DNA from: a virus
Strand: one strand, 5' to 3'
IMG/VR virus record: IMGVR_UViG_3300017991_000372
Span: 1-25,736 of that record
Length of the DNA stretch: 25,736 bases
Shown in pieces: positions 3,753 to 23,877 of this stretch; within the stretch, counting starts at the first letter, position 1, and each line of letters opens with the position of its first letter. The notes beneath the pieces were generated by a model. That model saw only the letters and a list, made by a program, of their open reading frames with translations. It had not been told where the DNA came from and searched no databases. Made by a program: the position numbers and the translations under genes.

Positions 3753-4559
3753 ATGAAAAGGCTCACGGTCCTGCTGTTTAGCACAGTCTTCGTACTTCCC
3801 CAATGCTCACTTGCCCAGGGCCCGCCTAACGAGCATCTCCGCTGGGGCAATCCTGGCGGGCCGGGCCAGTTGCTGGTGAAGAAATACTACGTGATCTCCC
3901 ACCACAGCGACTGGAAGATCCCGATCTGGACAGCAGTCCATATGACCGCCTATAGCGTTACCGGAACTGAGGAGCGTACGAATGACTTCCGGCCAGATAC
4001 CGAACTGCTAGAAGGACAACGGGCGGAGCTGGGGGACTACGCATCGGTCAGCGACCAACACATCCAGCGGGGCCACATGGTCGAGGCTGATGCGTTAGCC
4101 AGACTTGAGGAGTCAATGTCAGAGACCTTCCTGCTTTCCAACATGATACCCCAACATCGACACACCAATGTCGGTCGGTGGAGGGTCATCGAGGGGGAGG
4201 TACGAGAGCTGGCGGTAACTCGGGGTAGTATCTGGGTCTTCAGCGGCCCGGCTTTTCTCGCCTCGGAGGACAGCTCGCGAGTGGAACCTACCGTGCAAAT
4301 AGGTCCGAACCAGGTTGCGGTGCCCACCCACACCTTCAAGGTGGTCCTGGCCGAGCTCGGATCTGGGCAATACGAGATGTACGCGTTCCTCGTGGCCAAT
4401 GTCGCATCAGGGCATTCCGGCCACAACTCAGATGAATACCTGGTCAGCGTCGACGAAGTCGAGGCATGGACTGGTCTGGACTTTTTCTCGGCATTACCGG
4501 ACTCGATTGAATGGAACCTTGAGAGAACGAAGGTGGAGACATGGCCGATCCAGCCTTAG
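3753..4559 (+). CDS. Exported DNA/RNA non-specific endonuclease (NUC family)
   Basis: 268 residues. N-terminal signal peptide (MKRLTVLLFS..., hydrophobic core 4-16, cleavage probably after SLA at about residue 21). The NUC core is visible: QRGHMVEAD (105-113), SETFLLSNMIPQ (123-134), N139 in TNVGRW, VFSGPAF (162-168) and VPTHTFKVVL (190-199). By family knowledge H108 is the general base and N139 helps bind the metal; the usual D of DRGH is Q105 here. It should degrade nucleic acids in the periplasm or outside the cell. RBS AGGTGG at 3742-3747 supports ATG 3753. The next gene starts 19 bases before its stop. The nuclease call is strong; its role in the phage life cycle is inference. Confidence 0.85.
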   Translation: MKRLTVLLFSTVFVLPQCSLAQGPPNEHLRWGNPGGPGQLLVKKYYVISHHSDWKIPIWTAVHMTAYSVTGTEERTNDFRPDTELLEGQRAELGDYASVSDQHIQRGHMVEADALARLEESMSETFLLSNMIPQHRHTNVGRWRVIEGEVRELAVTRGSIWVFSGPAFLASEDSSRVEPTVQIGPNQVAVPTHTFKVVLAELGSGQYEMYAFLVANVASGHSGHNSDEYLVSVDEVEAWTGLDFFSALPDSIEWNLERTKVETWPIQP

Positions 4560-4939
4560 ACCGAAGCCCGCTATATGGACTCAAGAGAGTCCTGTACCGC
4601 TTCCATCAAGTATTTGCAGGGCTATTTGGAATTGCGGCAGGGTCAGCCATTGCCACATACACACCGCAATTGAAAGAGATTACTCAGGTTCCCATTGTCG
4701 TCGGTTCAGCCGGTGGGTTTCTGGGAAGTCTTACAATCGGGGCCGCATTGGGGAGAGCTCTATTCTACAAGTCACTGGAGGATGCCAATGATAGAGGGGG
4801 GCCGGTAGGAACCGTCATTCTGGCGCTCATTTCAATTATTCTCGTATTTAGCATTCTGTATATCATCACACTTCTTGTTGCCTATGGCGGAAACTTCGAG
4901 GCAGTACTCAATCGCACACTAGAACTTCTGGGCATGTAA
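4541..4939 (+). CDS. Multi-pass membrane protein of the accessory block
   Basis: 132 residues; ATG 4541 has AGGTGGAG at 4530-4537 and overlaps the nuclease gene by 19 bases, suggesting coupled translation. Hydrophobic segments at about residues 25-42, 50-72 and 88-115 predict three TM helices, with glycine-rich stretches (GGFLGSLTIGAALG). I do not recognise the family. The tight overlap suggests that it works with, or protects against, the exported nuclease, for example as an immunity or anchoring partner. That is inference. Confidence 0.7.
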   Translation: MADPALDRSPLYGLKRVLYRFHQVFAGLFGIAAGSAIATYTPQLKEITQVPIVVGSAGGFLGSLTIGAALGRALFYKSLEDANDRGGPVGTVILALISIILVFSILYIITLLVAYGGNFEAVLNRTLELLGM

Positions 4940-4940
4940 A

Positions 4941-4969
4941 TTGTCTCCATCTTGATTCATTGCTATAAG
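4941..4969 (+). promoter_or_regulatory. Extended -10 promoter for the protease gene
   Basis: TTGTCT (4941-4946), 17-base spacer, TATAAG (4964-4969) preceded by TGC, an extended -10 element. It starts 2 bases after the upstream stop codon, so the protease gene probably has its own transcript. Predicted start near 4976. Confidence 0.55.
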
Positions 4970-4991
4970 GTCGATAGGCTTGACGGTGACA

Positions 4992-5022
4992 GGGGACTTC
5001 CGGCAGATGGTCGGGGGTCCCC
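4992..5022 (+). promoter_or_regulatory. G/C-rich leader hairpin 3, before the protease gene
   Basis: GGGGACTTCCGG (4992-5003) pairs with TCGGGGGTCCCC (5011-5022): 12 bp including G-U pairs, 7-base loop, followed by GTTTGTCC (5023-5030). Upstream, GTGACAGGGGA (4986-4996) is identical to 3385-3395 in front of hairpin 1, and TTGACGG (4980-4986) matches 3345-3351. The weak T tract argues for attenuation or RNA regulation more than complete termination. Confidence 0.55.
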
Positions 5023-5057
5023 GTTTGTCCTTATGAAACGGAAGGAAGAGGTAGATA

Positions 5058-6035
5058 ATGTCAGAGGACAATGTACTTCCGAGCCAGTACAGGGAGACGA
5101 TTTCCGCCTTGATCGACATTGCCCCGGAAGAAGGCGCCTGTCTTTCTATGGTCCAGGAGGTGGCAGATTCGGGACCATGGGTCTGCATGGGCTTCATCTC
5201 TCCCTACCCGCCGGTACGAGTATCCCCAGTTGAAGCGCGCTATGCCACCATAGGTCTTGCCGAAGAATTTGCGATGGATGAGGCCATAAGCGAGGTCCTG
5301 AAGCAGACGGATTGTCGACAGCTTGTCCTCGTGATCAACAGTCCAGGCGGCGTAGCCACGTCCTCATACAAGATTGCAAAGGCACTCCGAGAGACATTTG
5401 ATCCAATTAAGGTCTACGTCCCTCACGTAGCTGCTAGCGGTGGAACATTGATTGCAATTGCCGGCAACCAGATCTCAATGGGCAGGATGAGCCACCTGAC
5501 TGCCATAGACCCCCAAGTAGTCTATAAGGGTGAGCGTGTCTCCGCCTTTGCGATTGTACGGGCGCTCTCCCGCGTATCCGACTATTTCGCGACGAGAAGA
5601 CCAGAAGAAGCTCCATATCCATGGAAGGCCCTTGCTGACAAGATCGATCCGATATTACTAGAGGACCACATGGGCAGCGTTCGTGAGGCCCAAAGGTACA
5701 TTCATTCCATTCTTCGGATGGCCGACTACTCCGAAGAAGAGGCAGTTGAAATCGTAAGTTCACTAGTCAATACTGTTGAGTCGCATGGTTCGGCAATTGG
5801 GCCAAATCATGCGAAACAGATTGGCCTGCGCATCGTCTCCAATAAGGAGGACAATCGGATTCTGCACATCGCCAAGGAGTGGCTTGGCGAGTACATGATG
5901 CAACCTTCTGAGAAGCACATTATCAGGTATGTTCTACCCAGGGAGGCCGAGCAAAGTGCCAAGAAGTCGAAGAGCACAAAGAGCAAGAGTGTCAAAGGAA
6001 AGCGCTCCCAGCCCAAGAAGTCCGAAGACGACTGA
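5058..6035 (+). CDS. SDH-type (ClpP/crotonase-fold) serine protease
   Basis: 325 residues, with a purine-rich GGAAGAGGT RBS upstream of ATG 5058. Residues 88-151 match the serine dehydrogenase proteinase/SppA-like family: LVLVINSPGG (89-98), VAASGGTLIAIAG (124-136, nucleophile candidate S127), and the region H146 to DPQ (151-153). The later KQIGL (253-257) also fits the family's C-terminal part. No signal peptide or TM is seen, so it should be cytoplasmic and, like family members, ATP-independent. The last ~30 residues are a Lys/Ser-rich tail (AKKSKSTKSKSVKGK), possibly for nucleic acid or membrane contact. It has its own promoter and leader hairpin. Fold call strong; substrate unknown. Confidence 0.8.
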   Translation: MSEDNVLPSQYRETISALIDIAPEEGACLSMVQEVADSGPWVCMGFISPYPPVRVSPVEARYATIGLAEEFAMDEAISEVLKQTDCRQLVLVINSPGGVATSSYKIAKALRETFDPIKVYVPHVAASGGTLIAIAGNQISMGRMSHLTAIDPQVVYKGERVSAFAIVRALSRVSDYFATRRPEEAPYPWKALADKIDPILLEDHMGSVREAQRYIHSILRMADYSEEEAVEIVSSLVNTVESHGSAIGPNHAKQIGLRIVSNKEDNRILHIAKEWLGEYMMQPSEKHIIRYVLPREAEQSAKKSKSTKSKSVKGKRSQPKKSEDD

Positions 6036-9875: not shown

Positions 9876-11075
9876 ATGACCAACGAGACAACCGCGCTTG
9901 AGCGAGCAGTCGCCGGCGCACCGACACAGCAGGAAGTGGAGGAGCTCCGCCAGCGCGGTGCCCTCCTCGTCCAGAAGTCCAAGGAGCTGCAGTCCCTTGC
10001 AAAGGAGATCGAGGGATGCCAGTGGGGCAGCGGCTCCTCCCTGGTGAAGGGTAGCAACTTCAGCGAGGCTACGCGAATGGCCTTCGCGAAGTTCTGTTAC
10101 CTCACCAAGGCCAACCCCATGATCCACATCGATGTGCTCGGTGGGGGTCCCTACCTGAATGCGGAGTACTGGTCGGACAAGATGAACTCCGACCCCACCT
10201 TCATCCGCTACGAGCAGTTCCCGATTGACAGGGGAACCGAGGCCAAGTGGCGGGAACGTGCCAAGCGGCTCCGTGCCCAGGCTTCAGAGCTCAAGGACCT
10301 GGAACCCCAGCGGGCCGCGGATTTCATCGGAAAGGCCCAGTATGCCGAAGACAAGGCCGACTGGGTCGAAGAGCAGCGCATCCAGTGGGAGGTCCCGGAC
10401 GCGGCACCCTCGGCCTACCTGACGGACATCTACAAGTTCGGCAACCACGCACCCCTCGAGAAGATCCGCTCCGGCGAGATCCAGGACTTCGACAGGTACG
10501 TGGTGAAGGTGAGCGAGGCCAACTGGGCCGGGAACAAGAGCAGTGATCCGGTCGGGAAGGCCGAGGCCGAGAAGACCGCTCGGACCCGCTCACTGAGACG
10601 AGCCGGCGTGCGGGCATTCTCGGCATGGCTCCAGCAGTACGAGCAGGAGATCTCCAAGGTGGAGAACGCCATGGAGGCCGAGTTCGAGATCATCATGGAC
10701 GAGCGTGCCGAAGAGCGTGCTTCCCTCCCCAGCTCCGACGAACCACAGGCCGTCAGCACCTCCCAGGGGGAGCCGAGCGTGGCCCAGGAGGACGAGGCTC
10801 AGGACCTGCCGTCCGCTACCGACCCCGCGGTGGAAGAGGACATACCTGCTCCTGAGATCAGCGAAGAGGAACAGAGCCTGGATGAGCCCGAGCCCTTCGA
10901 CCGGGGGGACTGGCACCGGAAGTACTTTGCCTTATTGAAGGAGGCGGGGATCGACGAGCGGAAGCCGTGGCAGGTAGACAACTTCCTGCCCGAGTCGGTC
11001 ACCGAGTGGGAGCCTCACCACTATAAGACCGCCTGCCGGCTCCTCGAGGAAATCGTTGAGGGGGCGAGAGCATGA
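9876..11075 (+). CDS. Putative recombination / ssDNA-annealing-type protein
   Basis: 399 residues; start ATG 9876 has GAGGAG 8-9 bases upstream, whereas GTG-type starts further up lack one. The N-terminal region is a coiled helix, then a conserved-looking core (FCYLTKANPMIHIDVLGGGPYLNAEYW), and EKTARTRSLRRAGVRAFSAWL near 225-250 recalls the KA.TRAL.RAL motif of RecT/Erf/Rad52-like annealing proteins. An acidic linker (about 280-345) separates a C-terminal helical domain. Position immediately before SbcD/SbcC genes strengthens a recombination role. I could not assign a specific family; a structural or ssDNA-binding role is an alternative. Confidence 0.5.
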   Translation: MTNETTALERAVAGAPTQQEVEELRQRGALLVQKSKELQSLAKEIEGCQWGSGSSLVKGSNFSEATRMAFAKFCYLTKANPMIHIDVLGGGPYLNAEYWSDKMNSDPTFIRYEQFPIDRGTEAKWRERAKRLRAQASELKDLEPQRAADFIGKAQYAEDKADWVEEQRIQWEVPDAAPSAYLTDIYKFGNHAPLEKIRSGEIQDFDRYVVKVSEANWAGNKSSDPVGKAEAEKTARTRSLRRAGVRAFSAWLQQYEQEISKVENAMEAEFEIIMDERAEERASLPSSDEPQAVSTSQGEPSVAQEDEAQDLPSATDPAVEEDIPAPEISEEEQSLDEPEPFDRGDWHRKYFALLKEAGIDERKPWQVDNFLPESVTEWEPHHYKTACRLLEEIVEGARA

Positions 11076-12241
11076 AGTCCCTCCACGCCTCCGACACGCA
11101 CCTGAACTTCCGGGCGTACTCCGCTCTCATCGAGGGTCGGAACGCACGGGAGGTCGACGTCGAGCGGGCCTGGCAGCGGCTCGTGGACATCTCCGTAGAG
11201 GAGAGGCCCGACCTGGTCGCACTGGCCGGCGACATCTTCCACCACCCCAGGCCCGGGTTCCGCGCGGTGAAGGCCTACCGCGACGGGATTCGGCGCATCA
11301 TCGAGGATACCCGAGCCCGGGTGATCATCCTCCAGGGCAACCACGATGCGGTGAAGACCGCGGACGCCCTGAGCCCGATCTGGATCCCAGACGACTACGA
11401 TCGGGTCTACATCATCACAGAGCCCCAGCGGGTCCGCATGGAGACCGCGGAGGGAGAGAAGATCTCCGTGGCCTGCTTCCCCTTCGTCGGGCTGGGGGAG
11501 CCGCAGACGTACCGGCTCCGCCCCGAGGAGGACGCGGACATCAACATCCTCCTCATGCACGCCGCGGTGAAGTCCTCAGAGGCCGAAGGAGCCCTCCCAT
11601 TCTTCTACCAGGGCCCGCATGCCCTGGACGTGGGGCGGGAGGCTGAGCGGTGGGACATCATCGCCCTGGGGGACTACCACGAGTTCACCCCGCTGCATCC
11701 CTTCCGGCCAGTCTTCTACTCCGGATCCATCGAGCGGACCTCGAGCAACATCTGGGTCGAGCACGAGCCGAAGGGGGTCGTGGTGTGCGAGACCGGATCG
11801 GAGCCGGACATGATGACGGTCTACCGATTCCGGGAGATCGAGACCCGCCCGATGCAGGACTACGACCTGGGTGACTTCGACCTGCCCCCCGGGGCCTCCG
11901 CCGAGGAAGTGAACGGAGCGCTCCGGGAGGCCCTCACCTACGACACCACCAAGGATGCCATCGTCCGCCTGAAGGTGGACAGCTTCCCCCGCGGCCAGCG
12001 TGACGAGATCGACTGGACGCTGGTGCGTGAGCTGAAAGCCCACTGCCTCCACTTCCAGCTGAATCTCCGCTTCGCCGAGGGCGCTGCCGTCGAGCTCGGA
12101 GACCGCCGGGAGCGAGGGGCGAAGACCCTGGTCCAGGAGGCCCAGGAGTTCTTCGCCGAGGATGAGAACGAGGTCCGGGAGTGCGCCCTTCGGTACCTGA
12201 CCGCGGGTGATCCCGAGGCCGAGGAGGAGGTGTCCGCATGA
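11072..12241 (+). CDS. sbcD: SbcD/Mre11-type nuclease subunit
   Basis: 389 residues. Metallophosphoesterase motifs: D8 and H10 (SDTH), D54 (GDIFHH), N90-H91-D92 (GNHD), H163 (LLMHAA), and GDYHEF (200-205). These coordinate two metal ions. With SbcC it forms a complex with ATP-dependent exonuclease and endonuclease activity on DNA ends and hairpins. It starts in the ATGA overlap with the previous gene and overlaps sbcC likewise. C-terminal ~120 residues probably form the capping and SbcC-binding parts. In phages such pairs act in recombination-dependent replication or end processing (T4 gp46/47 analogue). Confidence 0.92.
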   Translation: MKSLHASDTHLNFRAYSALIEGRNAREVDVERAWQRLVDISVEERPDLVALAGDIFHHPRPGFRAVKAYRDGIRRIIEDTRARVIILQGNHDAVKTADALSPIWIPDDYDRVYIITEPQRVRMETAEGEKISVACFPFVGLGEPQTYRLRPEEDADINILLMHAAVKSSEAEGALPFFYQGPHALDVGREAERWDIIALGDYHEFTPLHPFRPVFYSGSIERTSSNIWVEHEPKGVVVCETGSEPDMMTVYRFREIETRPMQDYDLGDFDLPPGASAEEVNGALREALTYDTTKDAIVRLKVDSFPRGQRDEIDWTLVRELKAHCLHFQLNLRFAEGAAVELGDRRERGAKTLVQEAQEFFAEDENEVRECALRYLTAGDPEAEEEVSA

Positions 12242-14688
12242 AGCTGCTCAGCCTGAAGCTGAAGAATTTCCGCCAGCACGCCGACACCGAGCTCCGCTTC
12301 CCCGAGCAGGGGCTCATCGGAGTCATCGGTGCCAACGAGAGCGGGAAGTCCACCCTGATCGAGGCCATCACCTGGGCGCTGTTCGGTGCCCGGGCCACCA
12401 GAGGGAAGGTCGACTCCATCCGCTGGAAGCGGGCCGTGGCTCGCCAGACCGCCCAGGTGGAGCTGGTCCTCGAGGTCGGGGGCAACACCTACCGGATCCA
12501 CCGGACTGAGAATGAGGCGAAGGTCTACGAGGGGGACAGCAACGTCCCGATCGTCACCTCGATCTCCCACGCCGACTCGAAGATCCCCGAGCTCATCGGG
12601 ATGGACCTGGACGAGTTCAGCGCCACCTACCTGTGCCGGCAGAAGGACCTCAATGCCCTGCAGAGCATGGGGGGTGTGGAGCGCCGGCAGTTCGTGCTTC
12701 GGGTGATGGGCGTGGGCACGGTGGACGATGCCCTGCAGTACTGCCGCCGGCAGAAGAACGACCTGGCGAAGGAGAAGGAGGGGCTGGAGGCCGGGCTGGG
12801 CAGTCGGGACTCCTACGAGCAGGCCGTGGCCGAAGCCCGGGAGCAGGCCAAGGGGTGCGAGGGACGCCACGCCGACGCGGTGGACGATCTCGCACAGTCC
12901 GAGGAGCTGCACACCTCCGCCCAGGAAGCTCTGGCCGAGGCCGATCAGAAGAAGGCCCGCCACCAGGAACTCCAGCGCAAGCTCGAGGAGGCCCGCAAGC
13001 AGCGGACCGAGGCGGATGAGGAGATCACCCGCCTGGGCGGAAAGATCCACGAGGCCAGGCAGGCACAGGAGCGCATCGCCCCTGCCGAGCGGGAGCTATC
13101 CGAACTCCCCCGGCTCCGCGAGAAGCGTGATGAGCTGAAGGAGGCCCGGGCCCGGAAGGCGGAACGGAAGCGCCTCCGGGAGTCCATCACACGTCAGGAG
13201 GGGGAGCTCCGGAAGGCCGAGGAGCAGCTGGGCAACATGACCCCCGGCGAAGAGCCGGCAGATCCCACCGCCCTGAAGGACAAGCTCGGCGCGAAGCGCG
13301 AGCAGTACGAGTCGATCCGCAAGGAGCGGGAACAGCGCCGGGGAGAGGCCGTGGCCGCGGCCAACCGTGCCGCCCAAGACGCCCGCCAGGCAAAGGAGAA
13401 GCTCGAGAAGCTCGAAGACCTGGGCGAGGAAGGGACCTGCCCCACCTGCCAGCAGGCCCTGGGCGATGCCTTCGGCGAGGTGATTGGCCACTACCGCCGG
13501 GAGAGGGAGCAGGCGGAGAAAGACGCCGCTGAGTTCCAGCGTACGGTCCAGACCCTCTCCGAGCCCCCTGAGCAGGAGAAGGCCCTCCAGCGTGAGGTCC
13601 AGATCCTCGCCCAGGAGGTCGAGGACACCCGGATGGCCCGGGCCCGGTGGGACCAAGCTCGTCAGCGCCACCAAGAGAAGCAGGGGGAGATCGAGGGGCG
13701 CCGGAAGCAGCTGGCCCACGACCGGGCCACGCTCGAGCAGATCCCCGACGCCGACGTGGATGAGGACCACTTCACCCAGGTCGAGTCCCGGATCCGTGAG
13801 CTCGAGGAGCTGCAGAAGCGGACCGAGGGCGACCGGGCGAAGGCCCAGGGCCACGAATCCCTCCAGGAGGACCGTGCCCGCTGGACCGAGAAGCTGAAGG
13901 CCTCAGAGACCGCAGAGGAGGAGGCCAAGCAGGGCCTGCGGGACCTCGCCTTCTCCACTGAGGCCTACGCTGAGACGGCCCAGGCGGCCGAGACGGCCCG
14001 GAAGGTGTACGAGGAGGCCAAGGTCACGCTGGCCCGGACCGAGGAGGCGCTCAAGGCGGCTCAGGCCCGCACCGAACAGGCCGAGAAGGCCCTGGAGGGC
14101 TGGGAGTCCCGGTCCGGCCGGCTGAAGGAGGTTGCCGGGGAGCTGCGAGTCCACGAGCGGACCGCGGAGCGCCTGAACGACTTCCGCACGGCCATGGCCT
14201 CGACCATCCGGCCCGAGCTCGAGGAGCTCACCAGCGCCTTCATCCACACCCTCACCGACGGGCGCCACGAGGGTGTGAGCCTGACCGAGGACTTCGACGT
14301 GATCCTCCAGGAGGGAGGCCTCGACCAGGAGGTCGTCTCCGGGGGGGCCGAGGACATCACCTCCATCGCCCTGCGCCTGGCGATCAGCCACATGATCGCG
14401 GCCCGGGCCGGGCATCCCCTCTCCCTGCTCATCATGGACGAGCCGTACGGATCTCTCGACGAGGTCCGGCGCCGGAACGTCACCGCGCTCCTGGAGCGGC
14501 TCAAGGGCACGTTCGCCCAGGTCCTCCTCATCACCCACGTGGACGAGGTGAAGGACACGGTGGACTACCCGGTCCATGTCGAGTTCGACGAGGCGAAGGG
14601 GAAGAGCCAGGTCACCGGCGCGGAGCCGGTGGAAGAGCAGACAGAGAGTGAGCCGGTCGCCCTGGTGGAGTGGGTGGAGGTCCCATGA
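12238..14688 (+). CDS. sbcC: SbcC/Rad50-type ATPase subunit
   Basis: 816 residues. Walker A GANESGKST (31-39), two long coiled-coil arms (about 180-390 and 415-650), zinc hook CPTC (C401, C404) at the apex, ABC signature region SGGAED (701-706) and Walker B LLIMDEP (I732-M733-D734-E735). The domain order is that of Rad50/SbcC, shorter than most cellular SbcC (about 1000). It powers and gates the SbcD nuclease. The signature reads SGGAEDITSIALRLA rather than the classic LSGGE, a small variation. Coupled by ATGA overlaps to neighbours. Confidence 0.95.
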   Translation: MKLLSLKLKNFRQHADTELRFPEQGLIGVIGANESGKSTLIEAITWALFGARATRGKVDSIRWKRAVARQTAQVELVLEVGGNTYRIHRTENEAKVYEGDSNVPIVTSISHADSKIPELIGMDLDEFSATYLCRQKDLNALQSMGGVERRQFVLRVMGVGTVDDALQYCRRQKNDLAKEKEGLEAGLGSRDSYEQAVAEAREQAKGCEGRHADAVDDLAQSEELHTSAQEALAEADQKKARHQELQRKLEEARKQRTEADEEITRLGGKIHEARQAQERIAPAERELSELPRLREKRDELKEARARKAERKRLRESITRQEGELRKAEEQLGNMTPGEEPADPTALKDKLGAKREQYESIRKEREQRRGEAVAAANRAAQDARQAKEKLEKLEDLGEEGTCPTCQQALGDAFGEVIGHYRREREQAEKDAAEFQRTVQTLSEPPEQEKALQREVQILAQEVEDTRMARARWDQARQRHQEKQGEIEGRRKQLAHDRATLEQIPDADVDEDHFTQVESRIRELEELQKRTEGDRAKAQGHESLQEDRARWTEKLKASETAEEEAKQGLRDLAFSTEAYAETAQAAETARKVYEEAKVTLARTEEALKAAQARTEQAEKALEGWESRSGRLKEVAGELRVHERTAERLNDFRTAMASTIRPELEELTSAFIHTLTDGRHEGVSLTEDFDVILQEGGLDQEVVSGGAEDITSIALRLAISHMIAARAGHPLSLLIMDEPYGSLDEVRRRNVTALLERLKGTFAQVLLITHVDEVKDTVDYPVHVEFDEAKGKSQVTGAEPVEEQTESEPVALVEWVEVP

Positions 14689-17199: not shown

Positions 17200-17985
17200 A
17201 TGGGACGCGAAAAGCTACCGCACATCCAGTTCTACACCGGGGACTGGCTCAAAGATCCGGCGGTCAACGCCCTGACACTCGAAGAGCAGGGGGCATGGGT
17301 GAGACTTTTGTGCTACATGCACGAGTCCAGTGAGCGCGGATACCTGGTGGTCAACGGCATCCCGGTAAATGACCGGATTCTCGGCCAATACCTCGGTTGC
17401 GAGGAAGCAAAGGCCAAGCAAATCCGAAGCAAATTGTTGGAGTACGGTGTCGCGAGTGAGGATGAAAGGGGAGCCCTCTACAGCCGCAGAATGGCCCGAG
17501 ACGAGGAAATACGGGAGAAGAGGGCGAGGGCTGGCCGGAGGGGTGGGAAGCAAAACTCAAGCAAATCCAAAGCAAACTCCCCCGCGCGCGCCGACAGTGA
17601 CAATGACAATGACACTGATACTGACTCTGAAACTGACACTGAGGTAGTGCCCTACCAGGAGATCGTAGATCGGTGGAATGCAACTTGTGGGAAGAAGCTT
17701 CCCGGGGTGAGGGCGCTGAGCAGCAAGAGGCGCCGGGGCATCCGGTCCCGGGTCGGCCAGATGGAGCAGGTCGCGGGGGATGATGCCTACGACCCGGACT
17801 GGTGGGATCGGGAGATCTTCCAGCGGATCCTCCGATCCCCGTTCCTGACCGGCGACAACGACCGGGGGTGGACAGCGGACTTCGACTTCGTGTTCACCCG
17901 GCAGGACGCAGCGCTGCGGATCCTGGAGGGCAAGTACGACGACGGCCGCGTGGTGCGTGGCCACAGCATGTACGAGCGGATGTGA
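17200..17985 (+). CDS. O-like replication initiator / helicase loader
   Basis: 261 residues. The N-terminus (HIQFYTGDWLKDPAVNALTLEEQGAWVRLLCYMHE) matches the DUF1376/YdaU-type winged-helix domain of phage replication proteins. A basic stretch (RRGGKQNSSKSKA), an acidic low-complexity linker (D132-E148, only D/N/S/T/E) and a C-terminal domain ending DFVFTRQDAALRILEGKYDD, the usual ending of phage helicase-loading proteins, follow. The DnaB-type helicase gene starts one base after its stop. The 5' two thirds is lower in GC than the 3' third, suggesting mosaic origin. Strong as replication protein, moderate on exact role. Confidence 0.8.
   Translation: MGREKLPHIQFYTGDWLKDPAVNALTLEEQGAWVRLLCYMHESSERGYLVVNGIPVNDRILGQYLGCEEAKAKQIRSKLLEYGVASEDERGALYSRRMARDEEIREKRARAGRRGGKQNSSKSKANSPARADSDNDNDTDTDSETDTEVVPYQEIVDRWNATCGKKLPGVRALSSKRRRGIRSRVGQMEQVAGDDAYDPDWWDREIFQRILRSPFLTGDNDRGWTADFDFVFTRQDAALRILEGKYDDGRVVRGHSMYERM
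17593..17643. repeat. Degenerate TGACAC/TGACAA repeat tract, candidate replication origin
   Basis: Inside the O-like gene, short units such as CAATGA, CACTGA, TACTGA and CTCTGA repeat in a 6/12-base rhythm. This AT-richer tract follows a CGCGCGCG run. In lambda, origin iterons lie in the middle of gene O, so this is a plausible origin. It may instead merely encode the acidic linker. Confidence 0.4.
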
Positions 17986-17986
17986 G

Positions 17987-19255
17987 ATGAGCGAGAACGG
18001 GCGAACCGATGCGATGGCCATGGTGCTCGCCGCACTGAGCACCTCGCAGCAGGCGCGGGGTGAGGTGGGCCGCATCCTGCCCGAGGAGTGTCTGCCGGAA
18101 TACGTGCGGGACACCTACCGGGCCCTGCTGTCCGCGTCCACCGAGCAGGACGTGGCGCGTGCCTGGATGGGGATGCCCACCGGGCTCGGGGAGGCCGTGA
18201 CCAGGGCGATGGACGAGCTCTATCTGCCCGCGGCGATCTCGAAGGCGAAGTGGCTGAGGGACCACTGGCGGGAGACCGCGATCCGCGAGGAGTTGGAGGC
18301 GACCAGGCGGGATAAGGGGCGCGTCACCCCCGCCGACCTGGAGGCAGCGCTGGAGAAGTACCCCGATGCGCCCGATGGGGACGACGGACCCGAGGGCGTG
18401 GAGGAGCTGGCCGGCCGCGTGCTGGACCTCATCGACCAGCGGGGTGGGCAGTGGACCCGGTGCGGGATCGAGAGCGTGGACCGCCGGACCTGGGGTATGA
18501 GGCCCGGAGATGTGTGGGTAGTAGCCGGACGGCCGAACCACGGCAAATCGCAGCTGGCCTACTACATCACCCACAACCTGCTGAGGCAGGACAAGCGGGT
18601 GCTGGTCTTCACCCTGGAGATGCCCGCCCACCAGGTGATGATGCGCCTGCTGGGCATCGAGGCGGGTGTGGAGATCGCCGATGTGGTCACCGGGCACAAG
18701 GGCCCGGAGTGGGAACAGCAGGCGATCTCCCACTTCGGGAGGGCGGTCAGTGAGGTCTCCGGCCACTGGGATGAGCGCCTGACCATCCTGGAGGGCTCTC
18801 AGCGCTACAGCTCGATCGCCGCGGCGGTGGCCCGGTATGAGCCGGATGTGTGGGTGGTCGACCAGGTGGGGCTGGTCACCGCCGACGGAGACAACCGCGC
18901 CCAGGCGCTGAGCGGGCTGGTTTACTCGCTGAAGGGCCTGGCGGGGGACACCGGCACCACCGCGGTGCTGGTCCACCAGCTCTCCCGGTCCATCGAGCAC
19001 CGCAGCAAGAGCGTCTGGCGCCCCCTGATGAGCGATCTGAAGGACTCAGGGGGCGTCGAGGAGGTGGCCGACCACATCCTGTGCATCGTCCGGGAGTACC
19101 TGGTCAGCGAGGACCCCTCTGAGCGCAGCATCTCGACGGTCTACCAGGTCAAGAACCGGCTCACCGGACAGGTCGGGATGGTCACCGTGGCCTATGAGTC
19201 GGGCGGTCGGTTCCGCGAGATGGTGGCCAAGGGGCATGAAGATGAGCCCTTCTGA
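17987..19255 (+). CDS. DnaB-type replicative helicase
   Basis: 422 residues from ATG 17987. N-terminal helical domain (1-140), then a RecA-like core: Walker A GRPNHGKS (181-188), LEMPAHQVMMR, Walker B VWVVDQVGLV with D292, and VLVHQLSRSIEHR...MSDLKDSGGVEEVADHI, the DnaB loop and arginine-finger region. It unwinds DNA 5' to 3' at the fork as a hexamer. Coupled to the O-like loader upstream. Asp at D292 is followed by Gln where many DnaB have Tyr; this varies among phage helicases. Confidence 0.9.
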   Translation: MSENGRTDAMAMVLAALSTSQQARGEVGRILPEECLPEYVRDTYRALLSASTEQDVARAWMGMPTGLGEAVTRAMDELYLPAAISKAKWLRDHWRETAIREELEATRRDKGRVTPADLEAALEKYPDAPDGDDGPEGVEELAGRVLDLIDQRGGQWTRCGIESVDRRTWGMRPGDVWVVAGRPNHGKSQLAYYITHNLLRQDKRVLVFTLEMPAHQVMMRLLGIEAGVEIADVVTGHKGPEWEQQAISHFGRAVSEVSGHWDERLTILEGSQRYSSIAAAVARYEPDVWVVDQVGLVTADGDNRAQALSGLVYSLKGLAGDTGTTAVLVHQLSRSIEHRSKSVWRPLMSDLKDSGGVEEVADHILCIVREYLVSEDPSERSISTVYQVKNRLTGQVGMVTVAYESGGRFREMVAKGHEDEPF

Positions 19256-22330: not shown

Positions 22331-22661
22331 GCCACTAAGCATAGACGAGTGTGTGGAGGCGATGGAAACCGAGGTGGAGCAACTGGAGGCGCAACTCAAC
22401 TCCCGTCGCCCCGCCTTTGACAGCCCCAACTCGATGCACCGCAAGATGATCGGGGGAGAACTGCGAATCGCCCGATCCATCCTCCACCACCTACAGGCGT
22501 ACAAGCAAACCCAAGATGCACCGAGGTATCGGGTGGGCGATGAGCCGGGGTCTATGGTGCCCCACGAGAACGGCCTGTGGGTCCCGGCGTCCCATGTTTT
22601 TATGTGCAAGCCCCACGAATCCGAGGCGTACAAGCGGATGCAGGAGGAAGGCAGTGCCTGA
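22323..22661 (+). CDS. Hypothetical protein before the AAA ATPase
   Basis: 112 residues from ATG 22323. N-terminal acidic coiled coil (IDECVEAMETEVEQLEAQL), helical middle and a short Pro/His-rich tail. Its 3' end carries AGGAGG for the BCS1-like gene. A possible partner of that ATPase, by adjacency only. Confidence 0.55.
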   Translation: MTEPLSIDECVEAMETEVEQLEAQLNSRRPAFDSPNSMHRKMIGGELRIARSILHHLQAYKQTQDAPRYRVGDEPGSMVPHENGLWVPASHVFMCKPHESEAYKRMQEEGSA

Positions 22662-23877
22662 TCTTCACGCACTCCTGACCGACAACCAGCTCTTTCAGGG
22701 CGGCTTCGTGCTCATGGTGCTCGGCGGGGCCTTAGCCTACCTCAGGTATGCCCCCAAGCTGGTCGGACGCCTCATCCAGCGGTGGGGAACGGCGACCCTG
22801 CACGTGAGGCAGCCCAGGATGGTGGAGTGGATTGGGGAGTGGCTGGCGGACAGCGACTATGCGGAGCGATGCCGAAGGCTTGACGCTTCGCTCAGTTTTG
22901 CCCAGGACACCCCACGGGCCGTCATGGCACCCGGCATCGGATACCACGTGTTTCGGTATAAGGGGAAGTGGGTGCTGCTTGAGCACGCAATTGAGGACAG
23001 CGGAAGCGAGGACAACCCTTTCATTCGCCGGGAGACGATCACCCTCAAGATGTTCGGGCGTCGAGCCAACAGACTTCGCGAGATCGTCACACAGGCAGTG
23101 GACATGGCGAATGAACGGCGTAGGGGCAAGCAGGTAGCCTTCATCAACAACGGGTACGGCGAGTGGATGCAGATCAGCGCCTCCGAGCCCAGAAAGCCCG
23201 AAAGCGTGGTGCTTCCGGGAGACATGCGGGAGGAGATCCTGGGTGACGCGGCGTGGTTCCTCGGGGCCTTCGAGTGGCATCAACGCCGGGGGCTCCCATA
23301 CCGCCGGGGCTACCTGTTCCACGGACCCCCGGGGAACGGCAAGAGCACCATGATCCAGGTCCTGGCGGGTCGCTTCGACCTTCCGATCTACGTCCTCAGC
23401 CTCACCGAGGACAACCTGACCGACTCCCGTTTGGTGGCCTGTATGGCACGGGTCCCCTCCAGGGCGGTGGTAGCGATTGAGGACGCGGATAAGGTCCCCT
23501 TCTCCGAAAAGAGCGGCGAGGGCGTGACGATGGCGGGTCTGCTCAACGCGATCGATGGTGTTCTGGCATCCAGCGGCAGGCTGCTGGTGATGACCGCGAA
23601 CGACATAAGTGGGCTTCCAGAGCCTCTTCTTCGGCCCGGACGGATTGACAGGAGGTGGCTTTTTTCCGTTCCAGACAAAGACGAGCTTTCTTTGATGTTC
23701 ACCCGGTTCTTCCCCGAAGGCAACGGCTACGGCAATCTGTTCGCATCTCAAGTCGCTGGCCAAGGACTACCAATGTCGGCGATTCAGCAGCATCTTGCTC
23801 GCCACCAAAACGGGGAGGAAGCCATAGAGGGAATCTCACTTCTCACAGCGGCCCCCAACGGAGAGGAAGGCGGATGA
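22654..23877 (+). CDS. BCS1-like AAA ATPase with N-terminal TM
   Basis: 407 residues; GTG start 22654 with AGGAGG at 22642-22647. A TM at about residues 14-34 (GFVLMVLGGALAYLRYAP) precedes a BCS1_N-like domain (about 50-185), and a AAA core: GPPGNGKS (224-231), Walker B VVAIEDAD (E276, D277), sensor-1 region LLVMTANDI and the RPGRIDRRWLFSVPD block (arginine fingers). In mitochondria Bcs1 is an inner-membrane protein translocase/chaperone; bacterial and phage members are poorly understood. Family call is strong. Membrane anchoring makes a role at the cell envelope plausible. Confidence 0.85.
   Translation: MPDLHALLTDNQLFQGGFVLMVLGGALAYLRYAPKLVGRLIQRWGTATLHVRQPRMVEWIGEWLADSDYAERCRRLDASLSFAQDTPRAVMAPGIGYHVFRYKGKWVLLEHAIEDSGSEDNPFIRRETITLKMFGRRANRLREIVTQAVDMANERRRGKQVAFINNGYGEWMQISASEPRKPESVVLPGDMREEILGDAAWFLGAFEWHQRRGLPYRRGYLFHGPPGNGKSTMIQVLAGRFDLPIYVLSLTEDNLTDSRLVACMARVPSRAVVAIEDADKVPFSEKSGEGVTMAGLLNAIDGVLASSGRLLVMTANDISGLPEPLLRPGRIDRRWLFSVPDKDELSLMFTRFFPEGNGYGNLFASQVAGQGLPMSAIQQHLARHQNGEEAIEGISLLTAAPNGEEGG

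Follow-up and report, generated by a model that had tools for sequence, protein, structure and literature searches.

The window, by which we mean the whole stretch of DNA that was analyzed, is an entire virus record of 25,736 bases, and it raises the question of whether an O-like gene within it carries both a replication origin and a joint at which gene modules are exchanged. An earlier note had tentatively placed both functions in a tract of TGACAX repeats inside this gene, with the repeats serving as origin iterons. The record is probably a fragment of its genome, and its gene content resembles that of a portion of a temperate phage. An integrase gene is followed by repressor-like and CII-like genes, recombination genes, the O-like gene, a DnaB helicase gene, and, at the right end, a gene for a small terminase. 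The open reading frame that the note had described is indeed present on the plus strand at positions 17200 to 17985 and encodes a protein of 261 amino acids, which is our proposed origin-bearing initiator. Directly 3′ of it on the same strand lies the DnaB-type replicative helicase gene (17987–19255; PF03796, E = 1.3e-39; PHROG 19). A search for close relatives of the phage by its DnaB protein found none. GC-skew was rejected as an origin test because of the probably fragmentary record and because skew follows gene strand, switching sign at about 6 and about 9.5 kb of the window, where minus-strand genes lie.

Three other regions of the window were noted in passing. Positions 11072 to 14688, upstream of the replication genes, hold a gene pair for an SbcD-like phosphoesterase and an SbcC/Rad50-like ATPase. 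A phage gene at 22516 to 23877 encodes BCS1-type N-terminal and AAA domains (PF08740, 3.6e-19), an arrangement whose best-known case is a mitochondrial chaperone. Near the integrase gene, a lower-GC region (3753–6035) carries genes for a DNA/RNA non-specific endonuclease and a ClpP-like SDH-type protease.

The O-like identity of the gene is supported by two lines of evidence. Residues 25 to 249 of the protein match positions 43 to 292 of the 297-position profile of PHROG 345 (replication initiation O-like; E = 1e-22), and the C-terminal two fifths match by tblastn the O genes of HK97, of other lambdoid phages, and of others. The tblastn search with the window protein matched 110 phage records, none of which covers 80% of the protein, and the 40 matches listed all fall within residues 150 to 255. 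In its N-terminal half, the protein shows 32 to 48% identity to DUF1376-type N-domains in alignments, with a Pfam DUF1376 score of 23.6 bits that lies below the curated cut-off of 30.1. Membership of RepA_N and of Phage_rep_O was rejected on sequence, as neither Pfam profile matched the window protein up to E 0.1; Phage_rep_O was found at 4e-36 in the relative L012. Only three relatives (L003, L004, and L006) match the window protein over both domains.

An AF2 model of the protein permits a division into three parts, all encoded on the plus strand. Codons 1 to 115 (17200–17544) specify a DUF1376-like, winged-helix-like N-terminal domain that is predicted to bind DNA, with block pLDDT values of 91 to 98 over residues 21 to 110. 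Codons 116 to 150 (17545–17649) form a low-confidence, probably disordered linker, with block values of 46 to 65 over residues 111 to 150 and values below 50 at residues 137 to 146. Codons 151 to 261 (17650–17982) specify the O-type C-terminal domain, which is modeled as helical (helices 152–242) with middling confidence and is predicted to recruit the helicase. When the N-domain was submitted to Foldseek, the top six rows were RepA initiator N-domain entries (E 0.008–0.03; none at or below 0.001), with the RepA_N initiators of pSK41 and pTZ2162 and the PLE RepA in the first rows, and among these entries one set is in complex with DNA. By Z score, the RepA N-domains (7.3–7.9, the latter with 3.9 A over 92 residues) are tied with RbkR (7.8), LexA and CRP lie within 1 of them, and all remain below 8; the DnaD N-domain reaches 7.0. 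These matches support a DNA-binding fold but not assignment to one family.

Several RepA_N plasmids carry iterons inside repA. As described in PMC7145576, RepA_N initiators combine a DNA-binding N-domain with a host-group-specific C-domain and act with iterons. Most of these iterons are semi-palindromes built around a poly-A centre, and PLE has its origin in non-coding DNA. The window protein differs from these initiators in having no Pfam RepA_N match and a fold likeness that is tied with other winged-helix proteins.

The TGACAX tract itself is present at 17593 to 17642 on the plus strand, where it encodes DSDNDNDTDTDSETDT. TRF detected it with a period of 6, 8.3 copies, 81% matches, and a score of 58, the highest among 15 rows in the window. 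The GC content of the tract is 42%, compared with a mean of 64.5% for 300-nt blocks, which puts it at about rank 28 from the bottom among 2569 50-nt windows but is not AT-rich in absolute terms. Its 6-bp periodicity was reached in 41 of 1000 protein-preserving shuffles and hence stems mostly from the protein, whose dipeptides force it. A DnaA-trio reading of the tract was rejected because, by eye, neither the polarity nor the sequences of the units agreed with it. The lower GC content that the note had reported for the 5′ part of the gene was also recovered, with the best split at 17701 (56.1% to the left, 68.4% to the right) and a likelihood ratio reached by 4 of 300 codon-order shuffles. With the repeats removed, the left side has 59.9% GC, and so the repeats make up part of the contrast.

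A stronger signal than the TGACAX tract, and one that the note had overlooked, comes from arrays of the heptamer AAGCAAA. Two plus-strand arrays, each of three units at 11-bp spacing, lie in the gene upstream of the tract: array 1 at 17405 to 17433 (codons 69–78, within predicted helix 69–81) and array 2 at 17548 to 17576 (codons 117–126, in the linker). They belong to 31-nt repeats at 17403 to 17433 and 17546 to 17576 that are identical at 27 of 31 positions and stand 143 bp apart. Array 2 adjoins the tract, with 16 nt between the end of the one and the start of the other. AAGCAAA occurs seven times in the window, six times inside the O-like gene, against an expectation of 0.55 for the record, and no other 7-mer in the record is as strongly clustered (six copies; the next has three). 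In 500 shuffles that preserve protein and codon usage, no shuffled gene had more than 4 copies, against the 6 observed, and the best 31-nt pair, 27 as observed, stayed at or below 23; a further 200 shuffles gave a best pair of at most 26. The units use all three reading frames, and therefore the likeness of the arrays does not reflect one repeated peptide. As a positive control we used lambda O, whose iterons are annotated at 39034 to 39118 inside the gene; its best 18-nt pair (16/18) was reached by 0 of 200 shuffles.

On these sequence data, we consider it likely that the gene encodes a phage initiator with a lambda-like intragenic origin and that the tract doubles as a module-exchange joint. 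The claim of an origin within the gene is thus well supported by sequence, with the candidate iterons being the upstream AAGCAAA arrays and probably not the TGACAX units. The converse assignment, in which the TGACAX units are the iterons and the arrays are incidental, can draw on the top TRF score of the tract and on the recurrence of 6-bp tracts at the same place beside other arrays (see below). However, at a 6-bp pitch each unit should face the other side of the helix from its neighbors, and the tract unit varies between relatives, whereas the arrays draw on a small set of similar words. Moreover, dipeptides almost explain the TGACAX periodicity, whereas the protein does not explain the arrays. 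We regard that assignment as very improbable.

The comparison with lambda is instructive on both likeness and difference. According to PMC3349717 and PMC6022878, the lambda origin lies inside the O gene, where iterons are followed by an AT-rich stretch, and the O protein joins an N-domain thought to bind DNA to a P-binding C-domain through a flexible linker. The window likewise has iteron-like sites inside an initiator gene, with array 2 in the linker and array 1 in the N-domain part. The four iterons of lambda are 18 bp long and internally symmetric and start 20 to 24 bp apart; the window instead has two sets of three 7-bp units at 11-bp spacing, an N-domain without a Phage_rep_O match, and a DnaB helicase gene rather than P as the next gene. 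The putative origin would be of the lambda and SPP1 kind, as portrayed in PMC3349717, PMC6022878, and PMC6316719, with a distinct iteron pattern. SPP1 gene 38 with oriL is likened to the window by description only; SPP1 differs in having another origin besides and in using a distinct protein, gp39, as its loader.

A search by motif alone found three AAGCAAA units at 11-bp spacing in at least 120 viral stretches. Among the arrays listed, 107 of 123 are inside viral ORFs of at least 120 aa, which form 71 clusters. A lag-6 tract lies downstream in 73 of these 107 listed ORF arrays and upstream in none, with a median gap of 13 nt. Representatives of the 71 clusters of listed arrays match DUF6291 in 41 cases and DUF1376 in 7, and their PHROG matches, which overlap, include primosomal protein (16), replisome organizer (10), and replication initiation protein (9). 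Linker repeats and tracts occur in both DUF families, to neither of which Pfam assigns a known function. Because this holds for DUF6291, not every array-bearing gene is a proven initiator.

The other 16 of the 123 listed viral arrays are outside ORFs of at least 120 aa, one of them (L045) in a 106-aa ORF that is DUF6291-like by eye and others intergenic. Iteron-binding initiators often repress their own genes too, and the arrays might be operators or sites of transcript-level control through which an initiator regulates itself, with no origin involved. These 16 arrays, one of which sits directly before a gene (L076), fit such a role. Autoregulation is harder to reconcile with the location of the 107 arrays within ORFs, and in the DUF1376 genes viewed the arrays come after the N-domain rather than at a promoter. 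In addition, many arrays are followed by a periodic tract, just as iterons precede an AT-rich stretch at lambda ori in the account given in PMC3349717. We therefore judge control sites without an origin to be unlikely.

Arrays outside long ORFs were also observed in their own right in L076 (8731, 9643, and 10887), L126 (350 and 489), and L085 (3614), some with diverse spacers, and these are possible non-coding origins. In bacterial genomes, 54 of the 117 arrays listed are in ORFs of at least 120 aa, and spacers are identical in 37 of the 63 others. Such bacterial arrays with identical spacers outside long ORFs resemble plain tandem repeats, and the picture is weaker than the viral one.

Searches with other words and spacings put the viral count in context. 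The permuted motif AACAAAG at 11 bp occurs in 69 viral stretches (a complete count), with 64 of 69 arrays in ORFs of at least 120 aa, and 41 of 51 distinct ORFs match PHROG 2514, named DnaD-like helicase loader. It was rejected as a null motif because its arrays are mostly in DnaD-type initiator ORFs. By its sequence contexts (loci L259–L327), AACAAAG looks like a second, initiator-linked iteron word, and a 6-bp tract lies downstream in only 4 of 63 arrays examined. After this failure, ACAAGAA, which has the same composition, was taken as the null motif, and the same search in a complete scan returned 13 viral stretches. The array is in ORFs longer than 300 aa at 4 of these 13 loci, and L607 and L613 represent one protein. 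When AAGCAAA was sought at 12 bp, the matches listed combined, by eye, initiator-like proteins with low-complexity ones; given this mixture and counts that are lower bounds, the 11- and 12-bp spacings are not comparable by count. Four genes from the 12-bp search that are DUF1376-like by eye (L151, L152, L160, and L254) carry two arrays each, like the window.

Relatives of the two DUF families were gathered with profiles of the N-domain alone, leaving out the linker. After near-duplicates and proteins shorter than 150 aa were dropped, 63 of 80 DUF1376 and 49 of 80 DUF6291 relatives were retained. The motif search had itself supplied all of the DUF6291 queries and, among the seven DUF1376 queries other than the window, three, which makes these samples partly dependent on the motif.

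Most DUF1376 relatives carry another word than AAGCAAA. An exact 7-mer is repeated at 12 bp in 59 of 63 genes (mean of five shuffles, 17.8), for which the TTCATC tract is the main driver, and at 11 bp in 19 of 63 (shuffles, 3.8). AAGCAAA nevertheless totals 75 copies in the 63 relatives versus 30.3 in 100 shuffles (maximum 44), but only five genes have two copies spaced by 11 or 12 bp (shuffles 0.4, maximum 2). The near-palindrome TTTG[GC]TTAA[GC]CAAA, of which AA[GC]CAAA is the right half, occurs in 32 of the 63 genes versus 0.6 in shuffles, and perfect palindromes take the form TTTGGTTAACCAAA in 10 genes and TTTGCTTAAGCAAA in 7. Copies of AA[GC]CAAA lie upstream of the DUF1376 tract in 67 cases and inside or downstream of it in 9. 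A lag-6 tract is present in 45 of 63 genes versus 3 to 9 in shuffles, and its commonest unit varies among relatives (TTCATC, AATGTA, and AACAAT in rotation). Poly-Ser tracts alternate TCA and TCT codons, with P(i=i+2) = 0.80 versus 0.47 when shuffled, an alternation that the protein does not require.

Among DUF6291 relatives, an 11-bp AAGCAAA pair occurs in 30 of 49 genes (shuffle mean 4.2, maximum 9) in a sample that is biased toward the motif, and a tract occurs in 42 of 49 versus 32 to 39 in shuffles, which is hardly above the protein-forced level. The DUF6291 and DUF1376 profiles do not match each other, although the alignments are small and a distant relation is possible. The DUF6291 model is all-helical, and comparing it with the PDB at E up to 10 gave 105 matches, no one of which had an E of 0.001 or less. 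A Pfam search for DUF1376 in eight genomes (0/8; controls 0/14) was uninformative.

Fifteen of 20 whole-protein loci were examined singly, and seven of these have an 18-nt repeat pair that was reached by 0 of 60 shuffles, with various words. One of the loci, L007, has an 11-bp repeat at codon 118. L003 and L004, which have both domains in common with the window protein, contain no AAGCAAA, and their best pairs were reached by 21 and 4 of 60 shuffles, respectively. A separate observation concerns GIY-YIG-type domains (T5orf172/MUG113), which Pfam places at or next to the iteron linker in L457 (codons 137–217) and L012 (codons 133–216) and which were seen by eye in L460, L471, and L474. The sequences look as if a nuclease domain of this type had entered at the iteron-linker position.

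These data also bear on whether the repeats are products of coding drift, whereby disordered linkers rich in K, Q, S, A, and N and runs of dipeptides expand by slippage without any function of the DNA. Slippage does produce such runs, the tract periodicity of both the window and DUF6291 is near the protein-forced level, and successive spacers are identical in 20 of the 107 listed viral ORF arrays. However, the first two spacers are unlike in the other 87, which indicates that the word was kept while its surroundings diverged, and the excess of iterons survives shuffles that preserve protein and codons. The alternating codons of DUF1376 poly-Ser and the existence of some arrays outside long ORFs likewise speak against drift, which we consider quite unlikely.

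The second claim of the note, recombination at the linker, was addressed with the 117 of 160 relatives that have a complete gene of at least 450 nt with a tract, using pairs defined by nucleotide identity on the N side. Of the 173 pairs of at least 80% identity, 112 lose similarity inside the tract, 61 remain similar past it, and none loses similarity before it; at a threshold of 75%, 268 of 407 pairs stop inside the tract and 24 before it. Among closer pairs, 16 of 61 (at least 85%) and 5 of 47 (at least 90%) stop in the tract, and 45 and 42, respectively, run past it. C-domain likeness is undetectable in 72 of the 112 pairs that end in the tract. In reading these counts, the pairs are not independent, all genes bear a tract, and faster change of the C-domain could add to the effect. 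A single pair from the O-type family (L019 and L020) illustrates the pattern, with DNA that is 92.5% identical from about codon 147 of L019 and first 87 residues of L019 that have no blastp match in L020. Exchange at the linker is thus supported for the family, in which similarity ends in the tract and the O-type C-domain occurs with different N-domains. For the window's own gene, the sole basis is the GC step, from which we infer that its C-domain came by exchange.

The arrays, their excess at the DNA level, the order of array then tract in other phages, and the similarity boundaries in relatives are directly seen, and they can be joined into a model for the window locus in which protein binding, unwinding, and origin activity are inferred steps. 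The winged-helix-like N-domain would bind the AAGCAAA iterons, each group of three being aligned on one face of the helix by its 11-bp spacing. The bound initiator may then wrap or bridge the two array groups 143 bp apart and thereby strain the tract, so that the AT-richer hexamers 16 nt downstream open. The O-type C-domain would recruit the DnaB helicase that is encoded by the next gene. As a repeat at a flexible linker, the tract would tolerate crossovers, so that initiator-plus-iteron modules could trade C-domains there while the N-domain and its iterons travel together.

Several observations weigh against this model, among them the lack of AAGCAAA in L003 and L004 and the tendency of closer pairs to run past the tract, and another fits it poorly. 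AAGCAAA is common to DUF6291 and DUF1376, which have no detectable relation, a finding that is difficult to reconcile with the N-domain being solely responsible for recognizing it. More tentatively, and with less probability than we give to the initiator model, there may be a portable intragenic origin cassette, in which AA[G/C]CAAA-type heptamers spaced by one helical turn are combined with a hexamer tract. Such a cassette would propagate, or arise by convergence, at the level of DNA among unrelated-looking N-domains and would perhaps be read by a common factor instead of by the individual N-domains. The tract would then be a routine crossover point for the swapping of helicase-recruiting halves.

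Searches of an open-access library turned up no description of these AAGCAAA arrays. If the proposed intragenic origin is correct, one short DNA signature would predict replication origins in very many uncharacterized phages and prophages, and DUF1376 and DUF6291 would gain a likely role. It raises the puzzle of how the same iteron word is kept by N-domains without detectable relation. A single sequence would have to encode the linker of the protein while also acting as the origin and as the joint for recombination, and the mosaicism of phage initiator genes would become testable, with the joint being the origin's own tract.
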